Positions 23,074 through 59,893 of a stretch of 64,000 nucleotides of DNA are shown piece by piece. Position 1 is the first letter of the stretch. The number at the start of each line of letters is the position of its first letter. A model generated the notes under the pieces. It worked only from the letters and a program-made list of their open reading frames with translations. It was not told the origin of the DNA and searched no databases. The translations under genes were made by a program, and so were the position numbers. Source of the stretch: Motilibacter rhizosphaerae (GTDB lineage Bacteria > Actinomycetota > Actinomycetes > Motilibacterales > Motilibacteraceae); NCBI RefSeq assembly GCF_004216915.1, contig NZ_SGXD01000002.1, positions 930,001 to 994,000 of the forward strand, in the 5' to 3' direction.

Positions 23074-23493
23074 GTGAGCAGCTACGGCGACGACGAGACG
23101 ATCGGCCGCATCCTGGCGGAGACGAGCACGTGGGCGGTGGTCGGCCTGTCGACCGACACGTCGCGCGCGGCGTACGGGGTGGCGCGGTTCCTGCAGCAGC
23201 AGGGCAAGCGCATCGTGCCGGTGCACCCGCGGGCGGAGACCGTGCACGGGGAGCAGGGCTACCGCACGCTCGCGGAGGTGCCCTTCCCCGTCGACGTCGT
23301 CGACGTCTTCGTGCGCAGCTCCGGCGCCGGCGCGGTCGCCGACGACGCGGTGCGCATCGGCGCGAAGGCCGTGTGGTTCCAGCTCGGCGTGGTCGACGAG
23401 GCGGCGTACGACCGGGTGCGGGCCGTCGGCACCGCGATGGTGATGGACCGCTGCCCCGCGATCGAGTGGCCGCGGCTCGGGCCGGTCGCCTGA
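23074..23493 (+). CDS. CoA-binding domain protein (YccU-like)
   Basis: A 139-residue single Rossmann-fold protein with GTG start. The sequence WAVVGLSTDTSRAAYGVARFLQQQG (about 21-45), VPVHPRAETVHGEQGYRTLAEVP and DRCPAIEWPRL at the end match the CoA-binding domain of succinyl-CoA synthetase alpha as found in the stand-alone YccU family. It has no catalytic His, so it probably only binds CoA or acyl-CoA. It stands alone between the divergent GGDEF/EAL gene and a small repeat. Confidence 0.85.
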   Translation: MSSYGDDETIGRILAETSTWAVVGLSTDTSRAAYGVARFLQQQGKRIVPVHPRAETVHGEQGYRTLAEVPFPVDVVDVFVRSSGAGAVADDAVRIGAKAVWFQLGVVDEAAYDRVRAVGTAMVMDRCPAIEWPRLGPVA

Positions 23494-23921: not shown

Positions 23922-24646
23922 CAGCCGACCGGCTCGACCTGCTGGCGCACCACGGCTGGCCGGCGCTCGAGGTCGTGGAGCGGGACGGGTGGCTGCTGCG
24001 CTTCGCCGGCGGCGTGACGCAGCGCGCGAACTCCGCACTGCCGCTGACCGTCCCGCGCGCCGGGGTGCCGCGCGCGCTCGAGGCGGTGGTCGAGGCGTAC
24101 GCCGCCCGCGGGTTGCCGCCGCTCGTCCAGGTCAGCGGAGCGTCGCCCTCCGGCCTGGCCGACGAGCTCTCGTCGCAGGGGTGGAGCCCCGGGGACGTGG
24201 CGGTCGCCGAGGTGGCGGACGTGGCGCTCGTGGCGGCGGAGGCTGCCGGGGTCGAGCTCTCCGCGGTGCCGTCGCAGGAGTGGCTGGACCTCTGGTGGTC
24301 CGTCGACGGGCGCGGCGGGGACGCCGAGCTGGAGGTCGCCCGGCGCATCCTCACCGGCTGCCCGTCCGTCTACGCGCTCGCGCGCGACGGGGGCGGCCCG
24401 GTGGCAGTCGGTCGGCTCGCGCTGGTCGAGGGGTGGGGCGGGGCCTACTGCCTCGCCGTCCGCTCCGGCGCTCGCCGGCAGGGGCACGGTACGCGGGTCC
24501 TCCGCGCGCTCGCCGCCGCCGGACGCGACGCCGGGGCAGAGCGGCTGTGGCTGCAGGTGCTCGAGCACAACGCGCCGGCGCGGGCGGCGTACGAGCGGCT
24601 CGGCTTCGCGCCCGTCGACAGCTACCGGTACTGGCGGCTCGGCTGA
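23918..24646 (+). CDS. GNAT family N-acetyltransferase
   Basis: A 242-residue acetyltransferase with GTG start overlapping the previous stop. The C-terminal half is a GNAT fold: AYCLAVRSGARRQGHGTRVLRAL is the acetyl-CoA pyrophosphate loop (R/Q-x-x-G-x-G), and LWLQVLEHNAPARAAYERLGF is the usual closing helix. The N-terminal half (LDLLAHHGWPALEVVERDGWLLRFAGG) matches a degenerate GNAT half found in many actinobacterial two-lobed acetyltransferases. The substrate is unknown. Confidence 0.85.
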   Translation: MTADRLDLLAHHGWPALEVVERDGWLLRFAGGVTQRANSALPLTVPRAGVPRALEAVVEAYAARGLPPLVQVSGASPSGLADELSSQGWSPGDVAVAEVADVALVAAEAAGVELSAVPSQEWLDLWWSVDGRGGDAELEVARRILTGCPSVYALARDGGGPVAVGRLALVEGWGGAYCLAVRSGARRQGHGTRVLRALAAAGRDAGAERLWLQVLEHNAPARAAYERLGFAPVDSYRYWRLG

Positions 24647-24735
24647 TCGCACCGCTGGCCCCGTCCGGGCTGGTGCCGGCGGGGCTGGGCGTGCTGCTGC
24701 GCTGGTCCTGCTCGTGCTCGGTGTGGGGCCTGGTG

Positions 24736-26220
24736 TCAGGCGGCGCAGGGTTGGGGTTCTGGTCGCGCTTCGTAGACCCTGCCCAAGGGGGTGCGGTGGG
24801 CGATGGTGCCGTCGGGGAGTGGTGTGGTGGTCCATCCCCACCAGGTCTTGAGGTTGTGGTGGAGCCGGCATCTGGGGCAGAGGTTGCGGCAGGTGGTGTG
24901 CCCGCCGCCGGGGTCGTCGGGCTCGTCGTGGTTGTACGGCACCGTGTGGTCGACGTCGCAGCGGCTCGCGGGGACCGAGCACGTCGGGTGCCCGCAGTGC
25001 AACCACAGTCCGATCACGTGCGCGCGTTGCGCGGCGGTGGGCTGGTAGCGCAGCTTGTGGAGGTCGAGGAGCCGGCCGTCGGGGTCGGTGATGGCGAGCT
25101 GCCAGGTCCCGTCGGAGGCGAGGAGGCGGCCGAGGTCGGCGGGGATCGGCCCGTGGCCCACGAGGTGGGCGGGGTCCTCGGCGAGGCCGAGGAGGGTGGC
25201 GGCGGAGATCTGCACCTGCACCGCGACCGGGGCGGCCGTCCTGGCAAGGGCGGGCAGGAAGTCGCCGTCTGCGCTCGGGTCGAGCAGCACGGAGCAGACC
25301 GCGACGAGCGCGTCCGCGCGTGAGCCGGCTCGAGCGGCGAACCCGCCGTCGGCGGTGGGCAGGTCGCGGGCGATGCGGTCGAGCGCCCCGCAGACGACCT
25401 GCGCTTCGTCGGCGGTGAGCAGGGCGCGGATCTCGGCCATCCCGTCCGGGAGCGGGGTGATCCGGACGGCGCGCTGCTGGACGGCGTCGGCGTGCCGCTC
25501 CGCCGCCCCGCGCGGGTCGAGCTTCGCCACCGCGCGACGGACGTCGCGGCGCAGCTCGCTGACCGTCCGCTCCGGGGCGCGGCGCAGCACGACTGCCTCC
25601 AGCGCGGGGATGTCCTCGTCGGCGAGGACGGACGCTTCGTCCACGATGACGCGGGCGTGCGCGGGGGAGACGTGGCCCTCAGCGAGCAGCCACCGCGTAC
25701 CCGGGTGCCGGCTCGTCAGCAGCACTGCGCCCTCGACCATCGCCGCGGTCCCGCGCTCGGTCATCCGCAGCGCGAGCGCCATCTCCGCCCGCGCGGACGC
25801 CTCCGCACCACCGCCCCGCGCGGCACCGGGGACGGTCTCCGCTGTCGCGGTCGCGATCTGCCCGTAGGCCGCTGCGACCGCGGTCGCCTTGAGCGCAGCG
25901 ACCGCGCTCTCCAGCCGCGCGCAGGCCTGCACGATCGCGAGCCGCGCGTCGCCAAGGACCACTGACTCGGCTCTGGCCGAGGTGAGCCCCTCACCCCCCG
26001 CCGACGTCGAGGGCAGAGCCGGTTCGCCGGCCAGTGCCCACGCCCGCAGCAGGCCCTCGTCGCGACTCAGCTGCTGCACCAGCGACAGCAGCATCGGCCC
26101 CGCCGCGACCTGCTCCAACGCCTGCGCGAACGGCAGCCCCGGTTCGGGCAGGGCGACGACCCCGGGCACGGGGCGGACGGGCAACCCGTCACCCCGCTCA
26201 AGACCGTCGTTCGAACGCAT
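24736..26220 (-). CDS. HNH endonuclease with DUF222 (13E12-type) domain, LexA-controlled
   Basis: A 494-residue protein. Residues about 50-370 form the helical DUF222 region found in the mycobacterial 13E12 repeat family; the C-terminal HNH nuclease has CDVDHTVPYNHDEPDDPGGGH and LCPRCRLHHNLKTWWGW with paired cysteines (HCGHPTCSVP and LCPRC) likely binding zinc. The active-site DH and HH/N residues are present. The ATG lies inside a perfect LexA box (26210-26227) and six bases after a -10 box, so it is predicted to be a leaderless, DNA-damage-induced gene. Its biological role is not established for the family. Copies of TGCATGATCACGG lie 92-230 bp upstream. Confidence 0.9.
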   Translation of the reverse strand: MRSNDGLERGDGLPVRPVPGVVALPEPGLPFAQALEQVAAGPMLLSLVQQLSRDEGLLRAWALAGEPALPSTSAGGEGLTSARAESVVLGDARLAIVQACARLESAVAALKATAVAAAYGQIATATAETVPGAARGGGAEASARAEMALALRMTERGTAAMVEGAVLLTSRHPGTRWLLAEGHVSPAHARVIVDEASVLADEDIPALEAVVLRRAPERTVSELRRDVRRAVAKLDPRGAAERHADAVQQRAVRITPLPDGMAEIRALLTADEAQVVCGALDRIARDLPTADGGFAARAGSRADALVAVCSVLLDPSADGDFLPALARTAAPVAVQVQISAATLLGLAEDPAHLVGHGPIPADLGRLLASDGTWQLAITDPDGRLLDLHKLRYQPTAAQRAHVIGLWLHCGHPTCSVPASRCDVDHTVPYNHDEPDDPGGGHTTCRNLCPRCRLHHNLKTWWGWTTTPLPDGTIAHRTPLGRVYEARPEPQPCAA

Positions 26221-26227
26221 GTTCGAA
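26210..26227. promoter_or_regulatory. LexA (SOS) box over the HNH start codon
   Basis: TTCGAAC-GCAT-GTTCGAA, a perfect palindrome that contains the actinobacterial/Bacillus LexA consensus TCGAAC-N4-GTTCGA without mismatch. The spacer GCAT includes the start codon of the minus-strand gene (ATG at 26220-26218). The box touches the last base of the -10. Confidence 0.88.
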
Positions 26228-26255
26228 TCATACGCCTCGGAAGAAGATAGGACAA
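26227..26255 (-). promoter_or_regulatory. Promoter of the HNH gene
   Basis: Reading leftward: -35 TTGTCC at 26255-26250, exactly 17 bp, then -10 TATGAT at 26232-26227. The predicted start of transcription, six or seven bases on, is the A of the ATG, so the message would be leaderless and LexA would cover both start sites. Confidence 0.75.
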
Positions 26256-26311
26256 GAGCCCGTGGCGGCGGACGTAGCTCGCTCGCGGCTCCCCACCATG
26301 TCCGAGGACGC

Positions 26312-26449
26312 GCAAGATCACGGGAATCGGGATGCCGATCCACCGACCACCCACGCTCAACTTGTGCATGATCACGGGAGGTGGAGGGGCGGACCTGGGC
26401 GCGGGGCCGACCCCACCGCCGGACAGCCCCACGACGTGCATGATCACGG
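26312..26449 (+). repeat. Three copies of the TGCATGATCACGG element
   Basis: Copies at 26312-26324 (GCAAGATCACGGG, degenerate), 26365-26377 and 26437-26449 (exact), all in the same orientation, in the 299-bp gap between the HNH gene start and the PPOX gene stop. A second short direct repeat, GGACGTCCGA-T/G-GTCG, lies just beyond at 26462 and 26482. No gene is seen in this gap. Confidence 0.8.
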
Positions 26450-26519
26450 CGTAGGAGAGGGCGGACGTCCGATGTCGAGGGTGGACGTCCGAGGTCGCCG
26501 GCCCACGGCCTGCCATCGG

Positions 26520-42000: not shown

Positions 42001-42552
42001 GCGGCCTGGCACCGCGAGGGGCGGGTGCGGCCCGGCTTCCGGGTCAGCATCAACGTCTCGAACCGGGAGTTCTGGCAGGGGGCGTACCCCGCCCGGCTGC
42101 TGGAGGCGCTCGAGGCCGCGCAGGTCGACCCGGGCTGGGTGGCGATCGAGATCACCGAGACGGTGATCATGCACTCGGCGGAGCAGGCGCTGCCGGTGCT
42201 CTCCCGGCTCAAGCAGGCCGGCCTGCGGCTGCACGTCGACGACTTCGGGACGGGCTACTCCTCCCTGGAGACGCTGCACCGCTTCCCCGTCGACGCGCTG
42301 AAGATCGACCGCTCGTTCGTCGCCCGGCTCGACCTCGACGAGCGCAGCACCGAGCTCGTGCGGACCATCGTCACCATGGGCCGCAACCTCGGCGTCGAGG
42401 TCATCGCCGAGGGCATCGAGACCGCGCGCCAGGCCGAGCGGCTGGTCGAGATGGGGTGCGAGTACGGCCAGGGCTACCTGTGGGCCCAGCCGCTGCCGGC
42501 CGCGGAGTTCGCCGCGCTGCTGGCCGGCGAGCCGCTGCCGGGCGTGCCGTGA
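39013..42552 (+). CDS. LacI-type sensor fused to PAS-GGDEF-EAL
   Basis: A 1179-residue signalling protein with GTG start. Residues 1-290 form a periplasmic-binding-protein-like domain of the LacI/GalR sort (TPLLSGGFFGGIIAGASRAA, WVSADNAGGARLAVEHLLAHGHRQLAFVG, DVAVVGFDDTTVGASLQPPLS) without any DNA-binding headpiece and without a signal peptide, so it is a cytosolic sugar-sensor fold. A 9-residue tandem repeat (307-339) and a helical middle region lead to a PAS domain (about 615-735), a diguanylate cyclase with GGDEF at 825-829, and an EAL domain with catalytic E953, NVSNREF, EITET, DDFGTGYSSL and EGIET. Both output domains look active. Confidence 0.92.
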   Translation: MAARPDPLVLGVLTPLLSGGFFGGIIAGASRAAARAGGSVLGVQTLDAHPGDVSTSDTRFTARMGWDTVSGFLVVTTAVDDDYLEALSAAGRPYVLVGRAPGATPAPWVSADNAGGARLAVEHLLAHGHRQLAFVGELDQADVAERYAAFRAALDAAGVPHDPALAVDVPNMMESGGAVGARALLAAGLPATAVVTGNDYGAIGLVETLLGAGVRVPEDVAVVGFDDTTVGASLQPPLSSARQDFVALGEVAADLLVAQAAGVVEAGAPVRHVLPTVLRTRESCGCGRAVLTAPATPVVQGTAEGPGSARAASRSGSARAASGPGSTRAASGSGSARAAEDLGADELVAELVAHGSEPRTAQLVVAQLLARLRAAVEGRPDHAGLLASAARLQPDQPRWETSAVLLAAAQAFARAMVEELPEERRAAAGAATDAVVLELAGALTRAQLDGEVQRTATVTSALRSEYDITLELLRGDQEGVSLGWLARTPARSALLARWTQVPGELDVVGGYERSGRAGRGGQHAPHGAPPRTRVGVVRTEEFPPAELHLLVAGQPGQMVAALPLHGRERDWGVLAVVGPVESTTVTGREGYHAWASLLGLAHDRAALVAGLRESEERYALAMRAANDGLWDWDLASGRVFYSERWAAMLGRRPEELTCTPADWLELVHEDDAPALEAVLDQCRLGLVDTFEVEQRVRTGDGEQRWMLCRALAVPGGGLPATRLVGAMSDVTERRQLEDELRQAALYDTVTGLPNKALFLDRLSLAMSSARRRRQDGGFAVLFLDLDGFKVINDSLGHMVGDALLVRVAERLRGPLRETDTAARFGGDEFAVLLSGVEDADGVATVVSRLQEALEAPYEVDGHLVSVTASLGVTLGPGRYERPEDLLRDADIAMYSAKARERGSWAVFAPSMHATAVDRLRTETELRTGIERGQLRLAYQPIVDLRDGGVVGSEALARWGHPERGLVPPSGFLAVAEETGLIIPLGRMLVQEAAAQVAAWHREGRVRPGFRVSINVSNREFWQGAYPARLLEALEAAQVDPGWVAIEITETVIMHSAEQALPVLSRLKQAGLRLHVDDFGTGYSSLETLHRFPVDALKIDRSFVARLDLDERSTELVRTIVTMGRNLGVEVIAEGIETARQAERLVEMGCEYGQGYLWAQPLPAAEFAALLAGEPLPGVP
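39931..40029. repeat. 27-bp in-frame tandem repeat
   Basis: Four units beginning at 39931, 39958, 39985 and 40012 (the last partial), encoding GSARAASRS, GSARAASGP, GSTRAASGS and GSARAA. It lies between the sensor domain and the helical region of the GGDEF/EAL protein and likely forms a flexible linker. Confidence 0.9.
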
Positions 42553-50798: not shown

Positions 50799-52112
50799 TC
50801 ACCAGAAGGTCCTGGTGGTGCCGGGGTTGCGGTCGCTCGCGTGGGTCGCTGGTACGGGTTCGCTTCCGTCGGGTGGTCGCCAGCGGAATCGGCCGGGTCT
50901 GTCGGGGTCGGGTTCGAGCTGCCAGCCTCCTTGGTGGAGGAGGTGGTGGTGGCGGCTGCAGAGCAGGCACATGTTGGTGATGTCGGTCGGGCCGCCGTCG
51001 GACCAGTGGATGACGTGGTGGGCTTGGACTCTGCGGTTGCGGCAGCCGGGGGCGATGCAGCCTCCGTCGCGTACCCACAGTGCTCTCAGTTGGGCTCTGG
51101 TGGCGAGGCGGGCCTCCCGGCCGAGGCCGAGCGGGACGCCGGGAGCGACCGTGACGGACAGGCCACCGAGGTTGACGGCACCATCCGTCCCCGCGCGCTC
51201 GTCGTTCGCAGCAGCAGCGCGGGCGTGCGGACTGAGCGTCGCGGTCAGCAGGACGCTCACGTCCGCGGTGCAGGTGAGGTAGCGGAGCTCCTCGGCGGTG
51301 AACGCCGTCCCGAGGATCGCGGCGATGCCGGTGTGCCCGTCGCCGGGCTGCAGCTCGTCGCGCAGCGTCGGGAGGTCGACGACGAGGGTGGTGTCGAGGC
51401 GCAGGCTGGTGACCCCGGGCTGGGAGCCGAGGTGGGTCTGGACGATCTCGATGAGGGCGTCGGCCTGGCGTTGGGCGGCGGTGCGCGGGTCGACCTGCTG
51501 GCCGGGTTCGGGGTTGGGCTGGGATCCGGCGCGGATCGCCTTCTGGACCAGCATGCCGTGCGCGCGGTCGAGCCGTCCGGTGATGATGACGGTGCCGTCC
51601 ATGCCGGTGGAGAGCAGCAGGTAGCGGCTGTCGTGGATGCGCTGCGCCTTCTCCTCGCGTGACTCGTCGGCGCCGACCGCCTCCTCCACCCGAGCGACCC
51701 CGGCCCGGACGTCCGCCGGCGCAGCGGCCTTCGCCAGCGGCACGAGCATCTCCTCCGCTTCGAGCATCACGGCTGCGCCGAGCCGCTTGTGCCCGGCCGC
51801 CAGCTCGTCGACGTGCCGCACGCTGATCTCACCCGCGACGAGCGCGTGCGCTGTCTGCGGGAGGTCGCGCAAGGCTCGCGCCGCCGTGACCGCTCGGCGG
51901 GCGTCGAGCGCGTCCATGCGGGTGTGGTGCCGGAGCCACGCCTGCGCGGTGACCTGGTTGTCGATGACGAACTCACCGGCGGCGTCGAACTCCGCGAGGT
52001 CGGTGAGGAACTCGGCCTGCAGCCGGGCGATCGCCGCGTGCTTCTCGAGCAGCGCGACCCCGCGCGCCGACCCGGACCTGGGGTCGCGCGACGGGCTGCT
52101 GCTCGAGCTCAT
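50799..52112 (-). CDS. HNH endonuclease with DUF222 (13E12-type) domain
   Basis: A 437-residue relative of the HNH protein at 24736. A DUF222 region (about 20-320; WLRHHTRMDALDARRAVTAARALRDLP near 60-86) precedes an HNH nuclease of the form RDGGCIAPGCRNRRVQAHHVIHWSDGGPTDITNMCLLCSRHHHLLHQGGW, with the Cys pairs and the catalytic HH/N/H residues present. The ATG at 52112 is six bases after TACGTT (52124-52119), so the message could be leaderless. No LexA box is seen. A TGCATGATCACGG element lies 139 bp upstream. Confidence 0.9.
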   Translation of the reverse strand: MSSSSSPSRDPRSGSARGVALLEKHAAIARLQAEFLTDLAEFDAAGEFVIDNQVTAQAWLRHHTRMDALDARRAVTAARALRDLPQTAHALVAGEISVRHVDELAAGHKRLGAAVMLEAEEMLVPLAKAAAPADVRAGVARVEEAVGADESREEKAQRIHDSRYLLLSTGMDGTVIITGRLDRAHGMLVQKAIRAGSQPNPEPGQQVDPRTAAQRQADALIEIVQTHLGSQPGVTSLRLDTTLVVDLPTLRDELQPGDGHTGIAAILGTAFTAEELRYLTCTADVSVLLTATLSPHARAAAANDERAGTDGAVNLGGLSVTVAPGVPLGLGREARLATRAQLRALWVRDGGCIAPGCRNRRVQAHHVIHWSDGGPTDITNMCLLCSRHHHLLHQGGWQLEPDPDRPGRFRWRPPDGSEPVPATHASDRNPGTTRTFW

Positions 52113-59456: not shown

Positions 59457-59893
59457 GGGTGGTCATGCAGATCCCGGGGCCCCGCCCCTTGCCGTGATCA
59501 TGCACATCTTGGGGCCCCGCCCCTGCGGTGATCATGCACACCTTGGGCCCCCTCCCCCGCCGTGATCATGCAGATCCTGGGGCCAGGTCGTGCATGATCA
59601 CGGGGACGGCGGGAGCGGACGGAGAACTCTCTGCGCCCAGGTTGCGCATGATCACGGGGACTTCACCCGGCGGAGCTCGCTGCGGTTCGTCCCGCCCAAC
59701 AGGTGCATGATCACGGCACAGACGGGCGTGCCGCCCCGTACGCCACACCCGCCCAAGTTGTGCATGATCACGGCAGATGACGAGCCCGGCCGCGTACGGC
59801 TCCCCCGCCCAGGTTGTGCATGATCACGGGGGGACGGCGCAGACGGGCGGGCCGCCCCGTACGGATCCCCGCCCAGGATCTGCATGATCACGG
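59457..59893. repeat. Array of about ten TGCATGATCACGG elements with an orientation switch
   Basis: Four copies point left (CCGTGATCATGCA: 59457-59469 degenerate, 59492-59504, 59526-59538, 59560-59572), about 34 bp apart. Six copies point right (TGCATGATCACGG: 59591-59603, 59645-59657 with one change, 59704-59716, 59761-59773, 59817-59829, 59881-59893), 54-64 bp apart. Right-hand units share a second conserved part, CGCCCA-A/G-GTTG before the core and a GACGGGCG-GCCGCCCCGTACG-like middle. No protein-coding composition is seen; stop-interrupted short frames arise from the repeats. Confidence 0.88.

Follow-up and report, generated by a model that had tools for sequence, protein, structure and literature searches.

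LexA/SOS control of 13E12/DUF222 HNH genes is already known from Mycobacterium tuberculosis, where HNH genes of the 13E12 family are members of the LexA regulon and a role in repair has been proposed for the proteins (PMC4181829). In that organism, mitomycin C switches on five putative HNH endonuclease genes in a RecA-dependent manner (PMC8151990), and two LexA-boxed HNH genes rise 29- and 22-fold with moxifloxacin (Rv3074 and Rv3776; PMC7911356). The operator of Streptomyces venezuelae, tCGAAC-N4-GNNCGa, belongs to a response that is graded by differing LexA affinities; the accessible part of that report mentions neither an HNH gene nor a leaderless start-codon overlap (PMC9380542). The lexA gene of M. 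tuberculosis is an SOS gene whose translation start is also its transcription start, but in the part of the account available to us its operator is not placed on the start codon (PMC2897130). HNH nucleases of stressed or damaged cells are represented by MSMEG_1275 of M. smegmatis, reported to be lethal (PMC9416677), and by Ref of phage P1 (PMC4713147), which we use as analogies only; they may show how such an enzyme could kill the cell or act in connection with RecA.

Here we analyze a DUF222-HNH gene of Motilibacter rhizosphaerae that lies in a window of 64,000 nucleotides, by which we mean the whole stretch of DNA that was analyzed and to which coordinates without a contig prefix refer. Its control region resembles the M. 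tuberculosis system in the operator consensus, TCGAAC-N4-GTTCGA, and in its association with a family of HNH genes that are under LexA and damage-induced there. It differs in that all exact operators of the genome are found at DUF222 genes and none at lexA or recA, in that there are about 18 boxed copies, and in that the operator contains the start codon. The refined M. tuberculosis motif (RYWTGTTCGA; MKWMTCGAAMRYWTGTTCGA in PMC4181829) is compatible with such an arrangement, having WTG at +8, the equivalent place in the spacer, and part of its extra specificity may stem not from contacts with LexA but from targets that are leaderless and begin there. We consider it likely, with a probability of roughly 0.88, that the site is a leaderless promoter under LexA repression and serves a putative nuclease gene of the DUF222-HNH (13E12-type) family.

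Putative operator, promoter and start codon of the focal gene

The focal gene belongs to a subfamily that we call A and occupies 24736..26220 on the minus strand (494 aa plus stop). Its predicted LexA operator (SOS box) is the 18-bp palindrome TTCGAACGCATGTTCGAA at 26210-26227 on the minus strand, which has zero mismatches, is the sole exact match in the window and contains an exact TCGAAC-N4-GTTCGA core at 26211-26226; 100 shuffles gave a mean of 0.5 matches even with three mismatches permitted. In the gene sense it reads TTCGAAC-ATGC-GTTCGAA, and the match is invariant in 17/17 copies in the genome. The spacer holds the start codon (ATG, 26220-26218, minus strand), in frame with the DUF222 protein encoded at 24739-26220. 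A scan of 24500-26500 returned a single promoter-like site (mean in shuffles, 0.0), which is on the minus strand and consists of the -35 element TTGTCC (26250..26255) and, 17 bp away, the -10 element TATGAT (26227..26232). The original prediction of a perfect LexA-type box with the ATG in its spacer, preceded by TTGTCC-17 bp-TATGAT, is thus confirmed at 26210-26255.

In leaderless genes a distance of 6-8 nt between the -10 element and the start codon makes +1 and the start codon coincide. Six bases separate TATGAT from the ATG here, as in every A copy; if transcription starts 7 nt past the -10, the first transcribed base is the A of the ATG, which puts the predicted transcription start at 26220. 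The operator touches the -10 and covers +1, so that bound LexA would be expected to block initiation. It is nevertheless conceivable, although unlikely, that LexA binds the site but that the gene is not leaderless, either because transcription starts further upstream or because translation starts at a downstream codon. Such an arrangement would accommodate the open frame, which extends upstream beyond the focal ATG, and the sister species, in which the start lies 24-35 nt past the box in four of the five DUF222 genes that have one; the start-codon layout is therefore favoured rather than fixed. However, the sole promoter-like site sets +1 at the ATG, the 6-nt distance from the -10 to an NTG triplet is kept in all A copies, the NTG itself is retained in all 17 exact boxes, and identity among the copies begins at the box and continues through the coding part, with unrelated DNA upstream. 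We therefore retain the leaderless reading, for which the conserved operator, -10, -35 and start codon and their recurrence in other families of the class provide comparative support, as the original prediction of a leaderless LexA-controlled gene had proposed.

The focal protein scores 67.1 bits against PF02720 (curated cut-off 24.4; E = 2e-18). In an alignment of 16 relatives, H425, N446 and H455 of its C-terminal HNH-like stretch (residues 409-461; 24838..24996, minus strand) fit the H-N-H pattern, at a level below Pfam reporting. The second DUF222-HNH gene of the window passes PF01844 with 25.5 bits (cut-off 21.4). The HNH label stands on a Pfam score for this paralogue and on the alignment for the focal protein, which Pfam leaves unscored. 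Searches of PHROGs and NCBIfam gave no match to the focal protein, and no solved structure matched it significantly by sequence or fold, the structure model being of moderate confidence (pLDDT 74, pTM 0.54). A search for named relatives returned one weak Mycolicibacterium match only, and no encoded relatives were found in viral contigs. The box pattern is present in many viral contigs.

Perfect boxes and the DUF222 family

The 4.3-Mb genome contains exactly 17 TCGAAC-N4-GTTCGA sites and 27 DUF222 genes, and all 17 sites, that of the focal gene included, are found at the starts of DUF222 (13E12-type) genes and in the gene sense. The spacer opens with ATG in 15 of these boxes and with TTG and CTG in one each. 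Two of the boxed copies look damaged: at C1:62969 the ATG of the box is out of frame with the remainder of the gene, and C1:1048938 combines the CTG with a frameshift. An 18th boxed gene, C1:336346, belongs to subfamily B and has the one-mismatch box CCGAACACATGTTCGA, where the in-frame ATG is shifted by two bases, is still within the spacer and opens a frame of 432 aa.

The boxed genes fall into subfamily A (about 495 aa), with ten close copies that include the window gene and are ~90% identical in protein, plus one divergent member, and subfamily B (about 425 aa, seven copies). The nine unboxed genes comprise the eight copies of subfamily C (about 423 aa) and one singleton. In a tree that leaves out the damaged copy C1:1048938, long branches separate A from B, and the box label is explained by one change. 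The window paralogue (50802..52112, minus strand; PF02720 and PF01844; DUF222 match 51222-52049, start near 52112) is a member of C and has no box within three mismatches near its start. It had been noted that, of the two paralogues in the window, just one carries the box; this is correct, and it extends to the whole genome, where A and B are boxed and C is not. The subfamily-C starts L039, L041, L042, L035, L047, L050 and L051 have a common upstream sequence, about CTGTCAGTGGTGGCTTGTACGTTGTCGGC-ATG, which suggests that these genes are governed by a conserved promoter or control element of their own, distinct from the box.

The identity of the palindrome can be judged from its occurrence elsewhere in the genome. 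One-mismatch versions lie upstream of the single lexA gene (TCGAACAGATGTTTGA) and of recA (TCGAACACGTGTTCGC), and for this reason the palindrome fits a LexA operator. Two further genes, L077 (C3:388787) and L078 (C5:268689), start with an ATG inside a one-mismatch box. From their sequences we take these to be an AlkB-like and a radical-SAM gene, respectively, and presumably SOS genes, so that the operator-on-start layout would extend beyond the DUF222 genes. The palindrome is identical to the SOS box described for mycobacteria (PMC4181829) and close to the Streptomyces operator consensus (PMC9380542). Since all exact copies in the genome accompany DUF222 genes, the palindrome could also be a site at which the DUF222 proteins regulate their own genes or a target on which they act, travelling with the family, and not a LexA site. 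We consider this very unlikely in view of the near-perfect versions at lexA, recA and the two other genes, the match to the mycobacterial motif, the nine DUF222 genes here that have no box, and the related genomes, in which about two thirds of the exact boxes are unlinked to any listed DUF222 gene.

Conservation, related genomes and genomic setting

Across the box and the gene, the DNA of the close A copies is 83-87% identical to that of the window copy, and each has TTG, 17 bp, TANNAT, 6 nt and NTG (10/10). Among the ten A copies, the mean pairwise identity is 0.28 in the upstream DNA (-160 to -60), 0.82 in the -35 element, 0.36 in the spacer between the -35 and -10 elements, 0.74 in the -10 element and 0.93 in the start codon, and it reaches 1.00 in both the noncoding 5' half-site and the 3' half-site. 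This footprint is the one expected of a LexA-repressed leaderless promoter. A and B, though separated by long branches, have the box in common. The unrelated upstream DNA may have arisen because a sharply delimited unit was copied, or because gene conversion affected the coding part. Although protein identity among the ten copies is about 90%, it is extremely unlikely that recent gene copying, and not selection, made their boxes identical, because the invariant noncoding half-site adjoins unrelated DNA where copying predicts equally conserved neutral flanks, because fourfold-degenerate sites are only 0.75 identical (0.41 expected at saturation), and because the box is also found in B and in other families of the class; we accordingly rejected recent duplication as its cause.

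Perfect boxes occur in 17 of 20 related genomes, and the per-genome totals sum to 99. Among the DUF222 matches listed for these relatives, at least 33 perfect boxes, in nine genomes, precede a same-strand DUF222 match by 59-563 bp. An in-frame start codon is present in the spacer of 19 of the 33 listed linked genes, from eight genomes of eight families. When only ATG is considered, 17 of the 19 sense ATGs in these 33 boxes share the frame of the gene (p = 6e-7 for an expectation of one third). The antisense strand of the box often contains an ATG as well (26 versus 19 sense), which indicates that the ATG is partly a by-product of the spacer preference of the operator; we therefore rejected the presence of an ATG in the box as meaningful by itself and regard only its frame and spacing as informative. 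The start codons adopt two registers, TCGAAC-ATG (M-R/C/S-S) and TCGAACNN-ATG (M-F-E/D), and in the latter a TAGAAT often overlaps the box by one base.

The segment that carries the focal gene is variable, since the genes that flank it (23074-23493 and from about 27865), which we take to be a CoA-binding gene and purE, respectively, are only 33 bp apart in the sister genome. A gene for a collagen-repeat protein (PF01391; 27014-27832) adjoins the focal gene in this segment, which is absent from the sister genome. Upstream of the focal gene are three copies of GTGATCATGCA (26311..26447, minus strand; two exact, one with two mismatches), whose membership in the system is uncertain. The same sequence is also found in the window at 42163, 52251 and 59459-59891. 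It is a dispersed repeat with 328 exact copies in the genome, often in inverted pairs 31 bp apart, and none in the sister species; the family relative G003 has 45 copies of the GTGATCATGCA 11-mer, arranged in direct arrays whose period is 22 bp (e.g., G003:C2:138714-138812). On contig C1 of the focal genome, 8/10 DUF222 genes, boxed and unboxed, are preceded by the repeat in their own orientation, compared to 0.37 expected from shifted positions, a control that ignores gene and intergenic structure, and we treat the association as a lead. The genome has no match to the REP-associated Y1 transposase (PF01797) that would mark GTGATCATGCA as a REP/RAYT element, and the other genomes revealed no shared repeat upstream of DUF222 genes apart from repeats at two loci of one genome.

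A model for repression and release

The observed anatomy, its conservation, the linkage to DUF222 genes and the presence of the same motif at lexA and recA provide the frame for a model in which binding, repression, the order of induction and nuclease activity are predicted. The operator begins where the -10 ends and reaches into codon 4, its 5' half-site being promoter DNA and its 3' half-site lying in codons 2-4 (ATG CGT TCG AAC). A LexA dimer on this operator would keep RNA polymerase off the -10/+1 region; RecA-driven cleavage of LexA would then permit transcription from the A of the ATG, and the mRNA would be translated immediately, without a leader. The focal gene would accordingly be strongly repressed until DNA damage. 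Because all 17 perfect sites sit on the starts of a single family, the whole nuclease set is probably kept off together until then.

The operator is perfect here and imperfect at lexA and recA, which suggests late release: we predict that the boxed genes are among the most tightly held and last released SOS genes, with late induction upon heavy damage. Late release of boxed nucleases is in line with M. tuberculosis, where the moxifloxacin dose at which two LexA-boxed HNH genes peak exceeds that for recA and lexA (PMC7911356), and the original statement that some mycobacterial 13E12 genes are SOS-regulated agrees with the LexA regulon of that organism (PMC4181829). A further extension, which we consider doubtful, is that ~17 nuclease genes are released together as the last SOS step and act genome-wide, perhaps at GTGATCATGCA repeats, either in damage-induced genome cutting or self-destruction, or in spread and gene conversion of the family itself.

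As far as the literature was searched, two features are new: the operator on the start codon as a repeated design, although prior mention of this layout is possible, and a genome in which one expanded nuclease family holds every perfect operator. Operator and start codon are fused in either of two registers, M-R/C/S-S or M-F-E/D, and the design recurs in several families of the class. It may thus provide a signature for SOS-controlled leaderless genes, namely an MFE/MFD or MRS/MCS start right after a -10 and TCGAAC, and it leads to the testable prediction that the boxed DUF222 nucleases belong to the SOS genes that are derepressed last.
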